Assembly (NCBI GenBank): GCA_018241185.1
Contig: JAFEEH010000164.1
Span: 1-44,159 of the forward strand
Direction of reading: 5' to 3'
Length of the DNA stretch: 44,159 nucleotides
DNA from: Pseudomonadota bacterium
Lineage (GTDB): Bacteria > Pseudomonadota > Gammaproteobacteria > Burkholderiales > Burkholderiaceae_C
Part shown: one piece after another, positions 8,971-34,956 of the stretch
Numbering within the stretch: the first letter of the stretch is position 1
Layout of the letters: each line of letters begins with the position of its first letter
Notes under the pieces: model-generated
Told to the model about the DNA's origin: nothing
Seen by the model: the letters and a program-made list of their open reading frames with translations, nothing else
Database searches by the model: none
Program-made: the position numbers and the translations under genes

Positions 8971-9030
8971 GCAAGGCTTCCGGCGACGGAAGAAAACGAC
9001 AGCCAGCGCCTTGTGGCACTGGCTGACGAT

Positions 9031-9106
9031 GCGGGAATAGCTCAGTTGGTAGAGCGCAACCTTGCCAAGGTTGAGGTCGACGGTTCGAGACCGTTTTCCC
9101 GCTCCA
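9031..9106 (+). tRNA. tRNA-Gly (GCC), copy 1
   Basis: 76 bases with encoded CCA. The acceptor stem GCGGGAA pairs with TTCCCGC, the D-arm contains GCTCAGTTGGTAGAGC, the anticodon loop TTGCCAA gives GCC, and the T-arm GACGG/CCGTT carries TTCGAGA. It is identical to the next copy. Confidence 0.97.
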
Positions 9107-9131
9107 GTTTTCTTCCGCCTGTCTGAAATGT

Positions 9132-9207
9132 GCGGGAATAGCTCAGTTGGTAGAGCGCAACCTTGCCAAGGTTGAGGTCGACGGTTCGAGACCGTTTTCC
9201 CGCTCCA
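9132..9207 (+). tRNA. tRNA-Gly (GCC), copy 2
   Basis: 76 bases, identical in sequence to copy 1 and separated from it by 25 bases. The identity extends into the first downstream bases (CCAGTTTTC), which suggests a tandem duplication. A terminator follows directly. Confidence 0.97.
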
Positions 9208-9216
9208 GTTTTCAAG

Positions 9217-12424: not shown

Positions 12425-13318
12425 TTAAGGGCCGGCGACGGCGGCGCCGGCAGGCAGTGGCGCCGAAGCGGAAACTTTCGGCAAAGCTGCCGGCAATGGT
12501 GTGAGCCAGCGCACCGTCGCTGCCTTCAGGGGCGCCAGGTCGGCGCTGCTGCGCAAGGTCAGGCCGGGCGAGGACTCGGGCGCATCGGCCAGCAGGCCTT
12601 GCGTGGCCAGCACCCGGCGGGTGTGCAGCGCGACCGGCACGCCGGTGTCGATGAAGCGCACGCCCGCAGGCGCCTGCGCACGGAGCAGCGTCTCGGCGAA
12701 GGGGTAGTGTGTGCAGCCCAGCACCACCGTGTCCACCTCGCCAACTTGCAAGCCAAATGGGCCTGCAGCGCCCATGTAGCCTGCGCAGAGCGCTCCTGTT
12801 TTGATAGCGTCATCGCGCTCGATGGCATCGGCCAGGCCATCGCAGGGCACGAGGCGGAACCGGGCCTGGCCGGCCAGTGAGTCGTGCAGGCGCCGGAATT
12901 TGTCGCTGGCCAGCGTGCCTTGCGTGGCCAGCACGGCGATGTGGCCGGTGCGGCTGGCCGCCACCGCAGGCTTGAGCGCAGGCTCGATCCCGATGACCGG
13001 CATCGTCGGCCACTGCGCGCGCAGCAGGTGCACGGCCGCAGCCGTCGCGGTGTTGCAGGCCACCACCAGGGCCTTGATGCGGTGCGTGCGGATCAACGCC
13101 TGGGCCACGGCGAACGAGCGTTCGATCACGTACGCGTCGCCGCGCTCGCCGTAGGGCGCATGGGCCGTGTCGGCAAAGTAGACGAAATGCTCGTGCGGCA
13201 GTTCAGCCTGCAGCGCCCGCAGCACGCTGAGGCCGCCGACGCCGCTGTCGAACACGCCGATCGGGCGGGCTGCGCTCGCTGCACGGCGGACCGCGCCGTC
13301 GGAAGTTGCAGCGGACAC
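12425..13318 (-). CDS. murI: glutamate racemase, with repeat-derived insertion
   Basis: Cytosolic enzyme converting L-glutamate to D-glutamate for peptidoglycan. The start is taken as the GTG at 13318, 11 bases after the fumarase stop (297 residues); longer versions would overlap the fumarase gene. GVFDSGVGGLSVL is at 21-33. The two catalytic cysteines are present, Cys88 in VVACNTA and Cys202 in VLGCTHYP, so the protein should be active. Residues 171-192 (starting AIKTGALC, ending PFGLQV) are encoded by a copy of the dispersed repeat at 12745-12808, in frame and without a stop. The last 40 residues are Ala/Pro-rich and weakly conserved. Confidence 0.95.
   Translation of the reverse strand: MSAATSDGAVRRAASAARPIGVFDSGVGGLSVLRALQAELPHEHFVYFADTAHAPYGERGDAYVIERSFAVAQALIRTHRIKALVVACNTATAAAVHLLRAQWPTMPVIGIEPALKPAVAASRTGHIAVLATQGTLASDKFRRLHDSLAGQARFRLVPCDGLADAIERDDAIKTGALCAGYMGAAGPFGLQVGEVDTVVLGCTHYPFAETLLRAQAPAGVRFIDTGVPVALHTRRVLATQGLLADAPESSPGLTLRSSADLAPLKAATVRWLTPLPAALPKVSASAPLPAGAAVAGP
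12745..12808 (-). repeat. dispersed ~64-base repeat, copy inside murI
   Basis: Read on the minus strand it begins GCTATCAAAACAGGAGC and ends GGCCCATTTGGCTTGCAAGT, the same order of blocks as the copies at 26882 and 34879. It lies wholly within the murI reading frame and is translated. Confidence 0.85.
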
Positions 13319-13329
13319 GTCCCGCAGGC

Positions 13330-14880
13330 TCAAGCCGTTTCCAGAGCGATGCCCTTGAACTCGCCGCTGGCGATGCGCTTGCTCCACTCGGCCGGGCCGG
13401 TGATGTGCGCGCTGGTGCCGCCGGCGTCCACGGCCACCGTCACGGGCATGTCGACCACGTCGAACTCGTAGATCGCTTCCATGCCCAAATCCTCGAAGCC
13501 CACCACTTTGGCGGTCTTGATGGCCTTGCTGACCAGGTAGGCGGCGCCGCCCACGGCCATCAGGTAGGCCGACTTGTGCTTCTTGATCGCCTCGATGGCG
13601 ACCGGGCCGCGCTCGGCCTTGCCGATCATCGCGATGAGGCCGGTCTGCGCCAGCATCATCTCGGTGAAGCCGTCCATGCGCGTGGCGGTGGTCGGGCCGG
13701 CGGGGCCGACGGCCTCGTCCTTCACCGGGTCGACCGGGCCGACGTAGTAGATGACGCGGTTGGTGAAGTCCACAGGCAGCTTCTCGCCCTTGGCCAGCAT
13801 GCCCTGGATGCGCTTGTGGGCGGCGTCGCGGCCGGTGAGCATCTTGCCGTTGAGCAGCAGCGTGTCGCCCGGCTTCCAGCTCGCCACTTCAGCGGCCGTG
13901 AGCTTGTCGAGATCGACGCGCTTGCTCTTGTTGTAGTCGGGCGCCCAGTCGATCTTCGGCCACAGGTCGAGCGAGGGCGCCTCCAGGTACACCGGGCCCG
14001 AACCGTCGAGCACGAAGTGCGCATGGCGGGTCGCCGCGCAATTCGGGATCATCGCCACCGGCTTGCTCGCCGCGTGCGTGGGGTACATCTTGATCTTGAC
14101 GTCGAGCACGGTCGACAGGCCGCCCAGGCCCTGCGCGCCGATGCCCAGTGCGTTGACCTTCTCGTACAGCTCCAGGCGCAGCTCCTCGACCTTCGTCAGT
14201 GGCTCCTTGCGGGCGGCCTTGGCCTGCAGCTCGTGCATGTCGAGGTCGTCCATCAGGCTTTCCTTGGCCATCAACGCGGCCTTCTCGGCCGTGCCGCCGA
14301 TGCCGATGCCCAGCATGCCGGGCGGGCACCAGCCGGCGCCCATCGTGGGCACGGTCTTGAGCACCCAGTCGACCACGCTGTCGCCCGGGTTGAGCATGAC
14401 CATCTTGCTCTTGTTCTCGCTGCCGCCGCCCTTGGCAGCCACGGTCACTTCGACCGTGTTGCCCGGCACGATCTCCGTGAAGATCACCGCGGGCGTGTTG
14501 TCCTTGGTGTTCTTGCGTTCGAACTGCGGGTCGGCCACGACCGAAGCGCGCAGCGTGTTGTCGGGGTGGTTGTAGCCGCGGCGCACGCCTTCGTTGATCG
14601 CGTCGTCCAGGCTGCCGGTGAAGCCACCCCAGCGAACGTCCATGCCCACCTTGAGGAAGACGTTGACGATGCCCGTGTCCTGGCAGATCGGCCGCTGGCC
14701 GGTCGCGCTCATCTTGCTGTTGGTGAGGATCTGCGCCATCGCGTCCTTGGCCGCCGGGCTCTGCTCGCGCTCGTAGGCCTTGGCCAGGTGGGCGATGTAG
14801 TCGGTCGGGTGGTAGTAGCTGATGTACTGGAGCGCGGCCGCTATCGATTCGATGAGGTCCGTCTGCTGGATCGTGGTCAT
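13330..14880 (-). CDS. fumarate hydratase class I (iron-sulfur)
   Basis: TCA-cycle enzyme interconverting fumarate and malate, using an oxygen-sensitive [4Fe-4S] cluster. The ATG at 14880 (MTTIQQTDL) gives 516 residues; an upstream in-frame start would add a Ser-rich stretch not seen in the family. Likely cluster ligands are Cys66 (ICQDTG), Cys185 (GWCPPG) and Cys281 (NCAATRH), spaced much as in E. coli FumA. The start has no strong Shine-Dalgarno. murI follows 11 bases downstream, so the two are likely co-transcribed. A second, iron-free fumarase (fumC) lies 2.3 kb away. Confidence 0.96.
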   Translation of the reverse strand: MTTIQQTDLIESIAAALQYISYYHPTDYIAHLAKAYEREQSPAAKDAMAQILTNSKMSATGQRPICQDTGIVNVFLKVGMDVRWGGFTGSLDDAINEGVRRGYNHPDNTLRASVVADPQFERKNTKDNTPAVIFTEIVPGNTVEVTVAAKGGGSENKSKMVMLNPGDSVVDWVLKTVPTMGAGWCPPGMLGIGIGGTAEKAALMAKESLMDDLDMHELQAKAARKEPLTKVEELRLELYEKVNALGIGAQGLGGLSTVLDVKIKMYPTHAASKPVAMIPNCAATRHAHFVLDGSGPVYLEAPSLDLWPKIDWAPDYNKSKRVDLDKLTAAEVASWKPGDTLLLNGKMLTGRDAAHKRIQGMLAKGEKLPVDFTNRVIYYVGPVDPVKDEAVGPAGPTTATRMDGFTEMMLAQTGLIAMIGKAERGPVAIEAIKKHKSAYLMAVGGAAYLVSKAIKTAKVVGFEDLGMEAIYEFDVVDMPVTVAVDAGGTSAHITGPAEWSKRIASGEFKGIALETA

Positions 14881-21529: not shown

Positions 21530-21592
21530 CTGCTATCGAAAAGAGAGCTGCTCGCGCCCGACCCGCGGGCGTTGCGGGCTGATTTCGTTCAC
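21530..21592 (+). repeat. dispersed repeat copy between convergent genes
   Basis: Begins CTGCTATCGAAAAGAGAGC, continues GCTCGCGCC and ends GCTGATTTCGTTCAC. It contains the hairpin CGCCCG-ACC-CGGGCG. It lies between the LysR stop and the Sel1-repeat gene stop, where it could act as a bidirectional end. Confidence 0.75.
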
Positions 21593-21603
21593 AAAACCAG
21601 GGC

Positions 21604-26161: not shown

Positions 26162-26488
26162 CTACTTGGTCGACAGCACCCAGGCCGCCAGCTTCTTGGC
26201 GTCGGCCTCGCTGACCTGCGTGTTGGCGGGCATGGGCACCGGGCCCCACACCCCGGCGCCCCCCTTCATGATCTTGGTCGCCAGCAGATCGGCCGCGCCC
26301 TTGGTGTCCTTGTACTTGGCTGCCACGTCCTTGAAGGACGGGCCCAGCACCTTGCGGTCGACCGCGTGGCAGCTCATGCAGTTCTTCGAGGTGGCCAGCG
26401 CGAGGTCGGCGGCGGCCGGCGTGGCGATGCCTCCGAGCGACAGCAGGAGTGCGAGGGCGGGCAGGGGGCGGATCGGGGACAAACTCAT
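26162..26488 (-). CDS. periplasmic cytochrome c (c551/c552 type)
   Basis: 108-residue precursor with a signal peptide (MSLSPIRPLPALALLL..., cleavage after PAAA near 27). The heme site CMSCH has Cys37, Cys40 and His41 as fifth ligand; Met86 in VPMPAN is the likely sixth ligand. The mature size of about 80 residues fits a small class I electron carrier. The ATG at 26488 is preferred; one 15 bases upstream is possible. A TACAAT -10-like box on the minus strand lies about 45 bases upstream (26532-26537). Needs the Ccm or Ccs maturation system encoded elsewhere. Confidence 0.93.
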   Translation of the reverse strand: MSLSPIRPLPALALLLSLGGIATPAAADLALATSKNCMSCHAVDRKVLGPSFKDVAAKYKDTKGAADLLATKIMKGGAGVWGPVPMPANTQVSEADAKKLAAWVLSTK

Positions 26489-26602
26489 GGTGGGGCGGTG
26501 CATGGGCTGCGTTACATTCGTTTCAACGCGATTGTAGGAAGCGGCGTGCACGCGCGCGGCCCGTTTCCCCCGAGTGAACTCGATGTCTGGAGGGATCTTT
26601 CC

Positions 26603-26860
26603 ATGTGGTTTTTGATGCTGGGCGTCCTGGGCGTCCTCCTCAAGTATTTCGAGGTCGGCTTCGTCGCCACGCTCAGCTGGTGGATCGTGCTGATCCCCTT
26701 CGGCCTGGCGATGGCCTGGTGGGCGTGGGCCGATGCGTCGGGCTATACCAAGCGCAAGGCCATGGAGCGCGAGGAGCGGCGCAAGCAGGAGCGCATCGAC
26801 CGCCAGCGCAGCCAGATGGGCATGCTCAGCAGCCGCTCCAACCGCGGCAAGCGGCGCTGA
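26603..26860 (+). CDS. small Trp-rich membrane protein (TIGR04438-like)
   Basis: 85 residues; ATG with GGAGGG upstream. Two closely spaced hydrophobic segments contain WWIV and AWWAWAD, giving five tryptophans in the first 43 residues. A strongly basic, Arg/Lys/Glu-rich cytosolic tail follows (KRKAMEREERRKQERIDRQR). This matches the small Trp-rich family found in Burkholderiales; its function is unknown. Convergent with ilvD, with a dispersed repeat between them. Confidence 0.85.
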   Translation: MWFLMLGVLGVLLKYFEVGFVATLSWWIVLIPFGLAMAWWAWADASGYTKRKAMEREERRKQERIDRQRSQMGMLSSRSNRGKRR

Positions 26861-26881
26861 AAAGAAAAAGCCTGCGCGGCA

Positions 26882-26945
26882 TGCTATCGAAACGATAGCT
26901 GCTCGCGCAGACTGGGCGGGCGCTACAGGCCGATCAGGCTTCGAA
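26882..26945 (+). repeat. dispersed repeat copy overlapping the ilvD stop
   Basis: Begins TGCTATCGAAACGATAGC, continues GCTCGCGCAGACTGGGCGGG and ends GGCCGATCAGGCTTCGAAG. The last 12 bases encode, on the minus strand, the final codons and the TGA of ilvD. Closest in sequence to the copy at 34879. Confidence 0.85.
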
Positions 26946-28631
26946 GTTGTCCAACACCGCGCCCGAGCTCGCGCTCGACGCATTGAACGCGAACTTGGCC
27001 AGCACGCCGCGCGTGTAACGCGGGGCCGGCGCCTTCCAGCCTTTCTTGCGCTCGGCGATCTCGGCCTCGGGCACGTTCAGTTCCAGCTTCAGTTGGTGCG
27101 CGTCGATGGTGATCGAGTCGCCTTCCTTCACGAAGGCGATCAGGCCGCCCGCGTAGGCTTCGGGGGCCACGTGCCCGACCACCATGCCCCAGGTGCCGCC
27201 CGAGAAGCGGCCGTCGGTGATGAGGCCGACCGATTCGCCCAGGCCGGCGCCGATCAGCGCGCCGGTGGGGGCCAGCATTTCCGGCATCCCGGGGCCGCCC
27301 TTGGGCCCCAGGTAGCGCAGCACCATCACGTCGCCGGCCACGATCTTGCCGTCGAGGATGGCCCGCAGGGCCGACTGCTCGTCGTCGAACACCCGCGCCG
27401 GGCCGGTGATGACCGGGTTCTTCAGGCCCGTGATCTTGGCCACCGAGCCTTCGGGCGAGAGGTTGCCCTTGAGGATCGCGAGGTGGCCCTCGGCGTACAT
27501 GGGCTTGTCGATCGGGCGGATCACGTCCTGGTCGGCGCGCAGCGCCGGCACGTCGGCCAGCGTTTCGGCGATGGTCTTGCCGGTGATGGTCATGCAGTCG
27601 CCGTGCAGCAGGCCGGCATCGAGCAGCACCTTCATCACCTGCGGGATGCCGCCGGCCTGGTGCAGGTCGACCGCAAGGTATTTGCCGCTGGGCTTGAGGT
27701 CGCAGATCACCGGGATCTTCTTGCGCATGCGCTCGAAGTCGTCGATGGTCCATTCGACCTCGGCCGCGTGCGCGATGGCCATGAAGTGCAGCACGGCGTT
27801 GGTCGAGCCGCCCGTGGCCATGATGACGGCCACCGCGTTCTCGATCGCTTCCTTGGTCACGATGTCGCGCGGCTTGAGGTCCTTCTTGATCGCCTCGACC
27901 AACACCTTGGCCGATTCCCTGGCCGAGTTCTGCTTCTCGTCGTGCGGGTTGGCCATGGTCGACGAGTAGGGCAGGCTCATGCCCAGCGCCTCGAAGGCCG
28001 AGGACATGGTGTTGGCCGTGTACATGCCGCCGCAGGAGCCGGTGCCGGGAATCGCGTTCTGCTCGATCTCCTTCAAGTCCTCGTCGGAAAGCTTGCCGGC
28101 CGCGTTCTGCCCCACGGCCTCGAACACGCTGACGATGTTGAGGTCCTGGCCGCGCCACTTGCCCGGCAGGATGGTGCCGCCGTACACGTAGATGGCCGGC
28201 ACGTTGGCGCGCAGCATGCCCATCATGCCGCCGGGCATGTTCTTGTCGCAGCCGCCGACCACGACCACGCCGTCCATCCACTGGCCGCCGACGCAGGTCT
28301 CGATGCAGTCGCTGATGACCTCGCGGCTGACCAGCGAGTACTTCATGCCCTCGGTGCCCATGGCCATGCCGTCCGAGATGGTGGGCGTGCCGAACACCTG
28401 CGCATTGCCGCCCGCTTCCTCGATGCCCGCGATGGCGGCGTCGGCCAGCTTCTGCAGGCCCGAGTTGCAGGGCGTGATGGTGCTGTGGCCGTTGGCCACG
28501 CCGACCATCGGCTTCTTGAAGTCGCCTTCCTGGTAGCCCATGGCGTAGTACATCGAGCGGTTCGATGCACGCGCCTTGCCTTCGGTGATGTTGGCGCTGC
28601 GGCGGTTGATCTGCAGGGTCTTGGTGTCCAT
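26934..28631 (-). CDS. ilvD: dihydroxy-acid dehydratase
   Basis: Iron-sulfur enzyme of valine, isoleucine and leucine synthesis. 565 residues. Cluster ligands are Cys55 (TPCNSG), Cys128 ([10 protein letters not shown]) and Cys200 ([15 protein letters not shown]), the set expected for the [2Fe-2S] form. The active-site Ser/Gly segment [10 protein letters not shown], here [10 protein letters not shown], is near the C-terminus. A weak RBS (AGAGAG) precedes the start. It is divergent from a LysR regulator across 113 bases that hold an inverted repeat. The 3' end runs into a dispersed repeat. Confidence 0.98.
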
Positions 28632-31556: not shown

Positions 31557-31612
31557 GCCGCGGCCGTTTCAGGGTCGAATCGGGCCGCAGCGCCCGTCGA
31601 TCGTGCGCGGGA

Positions 31613-31667
31613 CGCTATCGAATCAGGAGCAAACGCCACCCGGCCCGGCGACGCCTGCGTCGCCGGG
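31613..31667 (+). repeat. partial dispersed repeat followed by hairpin, lgt leader
   Basis: GCTATCGAATCAGGAGCAAACGCC (in blocks GCTATCGAATCAGGAGC and AAACGCC) matches the start of the dispersed repeat. It is followed by CCCGGCGACGC/GCGTCGCCGGG (31644-31654 with 31657-31667). It lies between the SDR stop and the lgt start. Confidence 0.55.
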
Positions 31668-31698: not shown

Positions 31699-32547
31699 AT
31701 GCTCATGTACCCGCAGCTCAACCCGGTGGCCCTGCAGATCGGCCCGGTGGCGATTCACTGGTATGGCCTGACCTACCTCGCGGCCTTCGGCCTGTTCTAT
31801 TTCCTCGGCACGCGCCGGCTGCGGCACGAACCCTTCCGCTCCATCACCGGGTCGGGCGCCTGGAGCCGGAAGGACGTGGAGGACATCCTCTTCCTCGGCG
31901 TCATGGGCGTGATCGTCGGCGGCCGGCTCGGCTACTGCCTCTTCTACAAGCCCGGCTACTACCTGACGCATCCGCTGGAGATCTTCATGGTCTGGCAGGG
32001 CGGCATGAGCTTCCACGGCGGCCTGCTCGGGGTGATCGCGTCGATGTTCTGGTATGCGCACTCGCGCCGGCGGCCTGTGTGGCAGGTGCTGGATTTCGTC
32101 GCGCCCTGCGTGCCCACCGGGCTGGCGGCAGGCCGCGTCGGCAACTTCATCAATGGCGAGCTGTGGGGACGCTTCTCGAGTCCGGACCTGCCTTGGGGCA
32201 TGGTCTTCCCGCAGAGCGGCTCGATGCTGCCGCGCCATCCCTCGCAGGTCTACCAGTTCCTGCTCGAGGGGCTGCTGCTCTTCGTCATCCTCTGGCTCTA
32301 CGCGCGCAAGGAACGGCGCGAGCGCCGCGTGTCGGCCGTGTTCCTGATCGGTTACGGCGTGATGCGCTTCATCGCCGAGTACTTCCGCGAGCCTGACGAC
32401 TTCCTGGGACTGCTGGCGCTGAACATGAGCATGGGCCAGTGGCTGTGCGTGCCGATGGTCGTGGCAGGCGTCGTGCTCTACCTCACGGCGCCCGAGCGTC
32501 CGCGCACGGCGGCACGCGGCCAGCCGCCGGCCCGCGCGACGCCCTGA
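31699..32547 (+). CDS. lgt: prolipoprotein diacylglyceryl transferase
   Basis: Inner-membrane enzyme that adds diacylglycerol to the lipobox cysteine of prolipoproteins. ATG 31699 (MLMYPQLNP) gives 282 residues; ATGs at 31690 and 31705 are close alternatives. About seven hydrophobic segments. Conserved parts: [27 protein letters not shown] with His106, and the signature [14 protein letters not shown] at 145-158 with PRHPSQVYQ downstream. It would process the T6SS lipoproteins encoded about 5 kb away, among many others. Confidence 0.97.
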
Positions 32548-34864: not shown

Positions 34865-34878
34865 GGATGGGCGCGGTT

Positions 34879-34942
34879 TGCTATCGAATTGCTAGCTGCT
34901 CGCGCAGACAGGGCGGGCGCTGCAGGCCGATTTGGCTTGAAA
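34879..34942 (+). repeat. dispersed repeat copy between tssL and tssA
   Basis: Begins TGCTATCGAATTGCTAGC, continues GCTCGCGCAGACAGGGCGGG and ends GGCCGATTTGGCTTGAAA. It is the cleanest copy in the window and serves as reference. It fills most of the gap between tssL stop and tssA start and would be part of their shared mRNA. Confidence 0.88.
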
Positions 34943-34956
34943 GTCGCCGAGATTGC

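Follow-up and report, generated by a model that had tools for sequence, protein, structure and literature searches.

The glutamate racemase gene murI in the 44,159-nucleotide stretch of DNA analysed here (the window) raises the question of how a dispersed palindromic repeat could come to form part of an essential enzyme. The sequence-only reading of the window had placed such a repeat in frame within an intact MurI, with both cysteine codons preserved, and each of these points held: the minus-strand bases 12808–12745, GCTATCAAAACAGGAGC...TTTGGCTTGCAAG, lie wholly in frame in an open gene, and the codons at 13057–13055 and 12715–12713 are intact within the motifs CNTAT and LGCTHYP. The features of the gene are listed here.

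12425 to 13387, minus strand: murI, glutamate racemase ORF (320 codons from GTG 13387; Pfam, NCBIfam and PDB matches)
13055 to 13057, minus strand: first cysteine codon (in VACNTAT), Cys91, invariant in a 34-row alignment
12745 to 12808, minus strand: repeat copy within murI, with the in-frame translation AIKTGALCAGYMGAAGPFGLQ(V)
12713 to 12715, minus strand: second cysteine codon (in LGCTHYP), Cys205, invariant in the 34-row alignment and located 3′ of the repeat-coded part

The 320-codon frame overlaps the end of the ORF directly upstream, which we take to encode a class I fumarate hydratase, and a 300-codon frame from 13327, or a start nearby, is likelier than GTG 13387. In the 300-residue frame the segment corresponds to residues 174–194 plus one base, and the residue numbers given earlier (171–192) are correct for a start at GTG 13318 but not for this frame. 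MurI is a full-length match to NCBIfam TIGR00067 (172.5 bits with a cut-off of 146.65, 1e-50, profile positions 1–226 of 251), and also matches Pfam PF01177 (8.2e-16) and 23 distinct PDB sequences, every one of which is named glutamate racemase (best E 1.2e-38). Judged by these matches, it is a bona fide glutamate racemase with an intact ORF, in which Cys91 and Cys205 are presumably catalytic, as elsewhere in the family. AlphaFold2 modelling using 34 sequences (mean pLDDT 85.7) placed residues 174–188 in one helix, followed by a loop, a strand at 200–203 and Cys205, with pLDDT values of 95–97 for the blocks spanning the repeat-coded segment. The repeat is predicted from this model to encode a structural helix and the exit loop ahead of the second-cysteine strand, and as a helix plus loop the segment would not be a surface tag; the surface loop which had been expected is ruled out by the modelled helix.

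The repeat family was examined with an HMM trained on 27 copies outside murI from the window's genome, one of these being the window copy at 34878 (L021). In the window, the HMM recovered the murI copy with 57.1 bits together with the five further copies listed below, and the 5′ block of the repeat had five matches including the murI copy, compared to 0.44 expected from shuffles.

34878 to 34946, plus strand: repeat copy, 72.7 bits (L021, part of the HMM training set)
26881 to 26948, plus strand: repeat copy, 59.8 bits, over the N-terminal part of the minus-strand ORF at 26162–26983
31566 to 31632, minus strand: repeat copy, 43.3 bits, upstream of the lgt domain (LGT start near 31723)
21531 to 21598, plus strand: repeat copy, 41.5 bits
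19771 to 19836, plus strand: repeat copy, 36.8 bits

A BLAST search of its own genome with the murI segment found at least 39 other places at E ≤ 1.6e-4 and one more at 1.93 (a lower bound, with the best 40 of 184 first-look candidates scored), including the other full-length matches on which the earlier reading had depended (full- or near-full-length at 75–81% identity). The 64 bases align gap-free with dispersed copies, and in an ungapped comparison with 29 own-genome copies, 28 shared 41–49 of the 64 positions and one shared 24. On these alignments the murI segment is a clear yet diverged copy of the repeat and not an exact recent one, so that the claim of a block-for-block match stands as regards a copy but not as regards exactness. 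Copy number is high, with 118 to at least 150 matches in three of three genomes and 60 to at least 150 in three of three more (best 150 scored). The consensus of 22 copies (17 from the window's genome and five from other genomes) is TTGCTATnGAATnnATAGCTGCTCGCGCAnGCnGGACGGGCGCTGCAGGCCGATTTGGCTTGAAA, in which a first hairpin is visible by eye and RNAalifold predicts a stem of nine pairs, two of these having changes on both sides. No Rfam model matched at the repeat positions of the window at E values up to 1, which rules out a known RNA family for the repeat, and reading the consensus by eye revealed no conserved GTAG or CGTC end. The genome has one Y1_Tnp match, which we assume to be RAYT-like, and a repeat copy directly adjoins it on the 3′ side (L423:1121–1177, C107); this adjacency may be due to chance given six copies in a 44-kb window, and a Y1 transposase is a possible mobiliser of the repeat family.

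The other copies had been described as intergenic. Since overlap with an ORF is by itself uninformative in a GC-rich genome, we made a rough check of coding context using Pfam on 20 ORFs over own-genome copies and eight over window copies. The only domain spanning a repeat was that of xseA (L013), and elsewhere the repeat either coincided with the beginning of the ORF or did not reach the domain, as is the case for the cytochrome c domain of the ORF at 26162–26983; on this check, the description does not hold for the copy in xseA. Several other placements were seen along the way. A copy at the start of ddl, encoding D-Ala-D-Ala ligase (L024:1501–1564), may supply the GTG start and first codons, and over its first 29 bases it matches the murI copy at 93% identity. 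In the gene of a DUF4130/uracil-DNA-glycosylase protein, an antisense copy (L011:1501–1544) occupies open frame before the DUF4130 domain. The window also includes two identical 83-base tandem copies with tRNA genes, 101 bases apart (9030–9213), followed by two more tRNAs.

We then compared MurI more widely using an alignment of 219 distinct proteins from 227 loci (eight identical proteins were removed) and a quick tree of 203 rows built with the segment excluded (16 class-level rows, L127–L142, were left out). The window MurI was placed in a 156-row clade (SH-aLRT 97), which from the genera it contains we take to be the Comamonadaceae, and 47 rows fell outside. MurI proteins outside the clade have the pattern ...IExGxLDxPxLxALVxRYxAPLREAGVDT and those within it typically ...IExxDAxKxxALCARYxxAxGPFGxxxGEIDT. 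The length between the E and D of these patterns is 25 codons in 40 of the 47 outside rows, whereas in the clade 94 of 156 rows have 28 codons, 58 are longer (judged by eye, chiefly through residues added ahead of the segment) and four are shorter. The usual net change of +3 codons is far below +21 and indicates that native codons were replaced, so that of the routes to domestication raised earlier (adjustment of flanking bases or replacement of residues), replacement stands and simple insertion into murI is ruled out.

The predicted difference from outgroups was also found, with the loop glycine in 148 of the 156 clade rows compared to 3/47 outside, and repeat-like DNA in the murI region (the imprint, at ≥8 bits with the 27-copy HMM) in 49 clade rows, 38 of them at ≥15 bits, and in none of the 47 outside. 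Nearly all of the repeat-like rows share an identical register, with L223 having its match elsewhere and some matches being partial. The event had been suggested to be one fixed in the genus, but the imprint is scattered over the whole clade and is present in only five of the 14 genomes of the window's own genus that have a MurI match (G000, G006, G007, G008 and G010), and this rules out a genus-limited event. The presence of the loop glycine in imprint-free clade members as well points to one founding event, and the resemblance between the outgroup helix AL..RY and the repeat-coded one leads us to suggest that chance similarity may have guided it. The same residues in MurI of bacteria without the repeat had been named as a finding that would count against domestication, and this was seen in part: Variovorax MurI retains ALCxRYMxxAGPFG in codons with no likeness to the repeat, yet is nested within the loop-bearing clade, and for this reason we take the Variovorax genes to be eroded copies rather than representatives of the state before the repeat.

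We note that no MurI match at E ≤ 0.001 was found in G013, of the same genus as the window (all 27 candidates scored), or in 33 of 200 family genomes, for which the best 11 candidates per genome were scored so that some matches may have been missed; 23 of the 33 genomes are ≥90% complete and ≤5% contaminated.

The imprint is also seen in codon choice. Of the 219 rows, 151 have the loop glycine, and in this set, unselected for repeat likeness, codons that are uncommon elsewhere in the same genes are prevalent in the segment: GCT for Ala174 (62% vs 6%), AAA for Lys176 (94% vs 29%), AGA for Arg178 (56% vs 1%), GGA for Gly178 (67% vs 6%), CGA for Arg190 (60% vs 5%) and ACA (59% vs 9%), with little or no skew at Cys181, Gly189 and Gly186. 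Synonymous-codon agreement between diverged pairs is 65% in the segment and 50% outside it among 37 rows selected as strongly repeat-like. None of 20,000 synonymous recodings of the window segment scored as high against its own genome's repeats, and in the 15 genomes described below, the observed score was reached by none of 20,000 recodings each in nine, by 6 to 80 in five, and by 865 in G227, which is unexceptional. These results bear on the suggestion that a native helix simply happens to have repeat-like DNA, by chance or by protein convergence. G227 and the partly native character of residues such as ALxxRY fit this, but the codon skew, the recodings and the exact register refute chance as an account of the whole DNA pattern, and we consider it extremely improbable.

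The imprint was also considered alongside the repeat content of genomes, using a sequence-only repeat model (R1) on 200 genomes of the GTDB family; the best 24 hits per genome were scored and genomes with at least 13 hits among these were regarded as repeat-rich. Repeats and murI were tabulated for 105 of the 200 (those left out include the repeat-rich G197, G207, G230 and G331), and 46 of 73 loop-bearing genomes were repeat-rich compared to one of 32 loop-free genomes. The exception, G300, carries a repeat-like DPFSL variant, and its murI (L230) has the variant loop DPFSLKNEEKNKG encoded by DNA that is also repeat-like (15.9 bits); this is probably the loop feature in a diverged form. Amongst the loop-bearing genomes, repeat-like murI (≥8 bits) was found in 28 of the 46 that are repeat-rich and in one of the 27 that are repeat-poor (Fisher 4e-7, kinship ignored), with the imprint missing in the other 26 repeat-poor and also in 18 of the repeat-rich genomes. 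The imprint was unrelated to GC3 (rho 0.04), and AT content as its cause is thereby ruled out. It should be noted that the murI HMM and the repeat-counting model were both drawn mainly from the window's genome, and that genomes with diverged repeats would score low on both, which could inflate the association. There were four well-supported independent pairs, in which murI differed in the same direction in 2.4 on average and in the opposite direction in none, a number with which significance is unreachable.

We also scored the segment of 15 genomes with own-genome and other-genome PWM profiles made from 173 copies outside murI. Of 189 copies fetched, six were dropped, either for a net indel, for want of a hit where one was expected or, in G311, for being the murI copy itself, and setting G203 aside reduced the remaining 183 to 173. 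The 15 genomes were chosen for having repeat-like murI, and most of the copies had been sampled as top matches to a model that came mainly from the window's genome. The double-centred own-genome advantage was 6.89 compared to about 0 under permutation (sd 1.15), and was 3.80 for third positions alone and 7.16 with two close kin removed, with each of these values reached in none of 20,000 permutations. Maxima in the controls were 3.84 for 2,000 column-permuted PWMs, 2.54 for 183 other windows of the same murI genes, and 2.63 for register shifts of 1–6 codons. The own genome ranked first in seven of the 15 and in the top three in 13. The signal sits in the middle and 3′ parts of the segment with none in the 5′ 17 bases (p = 0.17). 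Two genomes fail when third positions are scored, G282 with its own genome at rank 12 and G227 with its own at rank 10. Lineage-specific stem variants are also found in murI (for example G349 GTGCCC...AAGGACT, G190 AAGGGCTATAGGCCAATTT and G000 GGGCGCTGCAGGCC). A partial Mantel test holding the rest of murI constant was significant for all positions (r = 0.32, p = 0.0065) and not for third positions (r = 0.09, p = 0.27), and with this mixed outcome the phylogeny-aware support is modest. These comparisons suggest that, in the genomes tested, the murI segment follows the repeat dialect of the genome that carries it, as though recopying took place at times.

These data allow us to weigh the simplest history, in which one ancient insertion or replacement had no later exchange, and the murI segment is a fossil that lineages have retained unequally. 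This would fit the shared register of most repeat-like murI rows, the non-significant third-position Mantel test and independent pairs, and the murI copy of G311, which is the best-scoring among the matches listed for that genome, as slow erosion might leave it. Against this, the own-genome match, including third positions and stem variants, is greater than in every permutation, shift and composition control, and the imprint is nearly confined to the repeat-rich genomes among the 73 with the loop. We regard a history without later exchange as unlikely.

Sequence could also have moved in the opposite direction, with murI as the source of the repeat family, as might be suggested by the similar distributions of repeat-rich genomes and of the murI loop among the 105 tabulated. 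However, the place occupied by Tyr in most murI copies is TAC or TAT in 12 of the 15 genomes and in none of the 173 copies outside murI. This pattern favours murI as recipient and speaks against it as donor. Repeat-like DNA at ≥8 bits is, in addition, absent from all 47 murI genes outside the clade. On the strength of the Tyr codon we reject murI as the source of the repeats, an origin that we consider very improbable.

Whether there was a single founding event is a further question, as native codons may resemble the repeat, or the site may tolerate it, and replacements could have recurred independently. The mechanism would be close to that of our preferred reading, ancient domestication followed by recopying, minus the single founding event. 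Three observations are in keeping with this. The murI of G203 has repeat-like DNA a few codons upstream of the usual place (L223:897–953, 34.1 bits, coding DAIEKEAAGAHWAGATAL), which amounts to a second murI place. In-frame repeat-like DNA is also found by the 27-copy HMM in xseA, encoding the exonuclease VII large subunit, in six genus members out of 15, all in one subclade and including a near-identical pair (L013:1501–1553 in C6 of the window's own genome, and L424–L429), with gene length unchanged compared to seven of nine members without the repeat (small indels occur in L431 and L432). Lastly, the native outgroup RYT/ALxxRY is near to the repeat-encoded residues. The xseA and L223 cases suggest that overwriting without lengthening, as distinct from insertion, is a recurrent mode. 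On the other hand, the distribution of the loop glycine inside and outside the clade, with imprint-free members included, is at odds with repeated independent origins, and for the L223 copy the repeats of G203, its own genome, rank fifth of 16, behind those of other genomes. We think that recurrent replacement without a founding event is fairly unlikely.

A DNA- or RNA-level function, such as a binding site or an RNA hairpin with dialects that co-evolve with a binding protein, would also explain why codon choice differs so strongly between the segment and the remainder of murI. In folding, the segment does better than its shuffles (z −2.35), and REPs are described as known binding sites (PMC2817692). 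Of four intergenic copies that were folded, though, only one clearly beats shuffles (z −3.29, with the others at −1.14, −0.76 and 0.28), and the 18 of 46 repeat-rich genomes without the imprint also count against such a role, which we consider quite improbable.

Ancient domestication with repeated conversion-like recopying is, in our assessment, the best reading and a reasonably probable one. It starts from what is seen in murI, a repeat copy in a common register with a clade-level loop, a codon imprint and an own-genome match, from which we infer transfer by recombination from intergenic copies to murI on more than one occasion. A REP-like high-copy palindrome of the Comamonadaceae would have overwritten about 20 murI codons, covering the helix and the next loop, in the family ancestor with a net gain of three codons, and the repeat codons would then have become an ordinary, functional part of the enzyme. 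In genomes that still have many intergenic copies, occasional in-register copying back into murI, by ectopic gene conversion or template switching, would make the murI stretch track the local repeat dialect, silent sites included, while selection would preserve the reading frame and particular residues, among them the Tyr of RYT/RYM. After loss of the intergenic repeats, the stretch would drift to ordinary codons and keep the protein solution. The broader proposal, that hundreds of dispersed palindromes across the family act as a standing donor pool which rewrites the MurI helix, and sometimes xseA, by ectopic gene conversion, has in our view an even chance of being correct. Ectopic gene conversion and concerted evolution in bacteria involve non-reciprocal homogenisation, usually between gene paralogues, whereas the exchange proposed here is between dispersed repeats and part of the single-copy murI. 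Sixty-four diverged bases are short for RecA-dependent exchange, and no donor tract or intermediate for recopying was observed.

The closest precedents are the Rickettsia palindromic elements (RPEs) and REPs within genes. RPEs (Ogata et al. 2000, as cited in PMC2229807) are 105–146 bp long, are described as ORF insertions, and occur between genes as well as fused in frame into conserved protein genes, which they do not destroy. By this description, the murI repeat likewise has copies scattered across its genome and is read in frame as part of a conserved gene, but at 64 bases it replaced native codons with a usual net change of +3 and was not inserted; its site is also common to many family members, and the segment follows own-genome repeats. 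REPs of the GTAG/CGTC families are, in the accessible part of PMC3733652, short high-copy palindromes with some located within coding regions, as is the Comamonadaceae repeat, although its consensus does not have their conserved end tag. The nearest shared-site precedent we have seen is from the same source, in which Xanthomonas recB was struck at about the same site in two species; that portion of the paper describes no family-wide register or own-genome homogenisation, and Acidovorax, Delftia and Burkholderia do not occur in its main text. The likeness to REP/RAYT systems, as far as these are covered in the available part of PMC2817692, extends to high copy number, hairpins and the one Y1 transposase match with an adjoining repeat copy, though the murI repeat has no end tag and the adjacency may be due to chance at such a repeat density. 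No paper on this repeat, on a repeat-derived MurI or on a family-wide, own-genome-homogenised case was found among the top-ranked matches in the open-licence literature.

That palindromic repeats can be translated is known from Rickettsia RPEs and from REPs in the ORFs of several species, and as far as the available parts of these sources go, the known in-frame bacterial cases are mostly scattered insertions (PMC2229807, PMC3733652). What murI offers is a shared site in an essential enzyme, with its origin placed at the root of a single family, numerous natural replicates that have or lack donor repeats, and a measurable sign of exchange still going on. This opens two questions to testing: how noncoding repeats turn into protein, and whether dispersed repeats as short as these recombine often enough to steer host genes. 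In practice, murI trees of the Comamonadaceae should omit the repeat-coded codons and, if our reading is true, part of this enzyme would evolve with the repeat dialect of the genome, apart from the rest of the gene.
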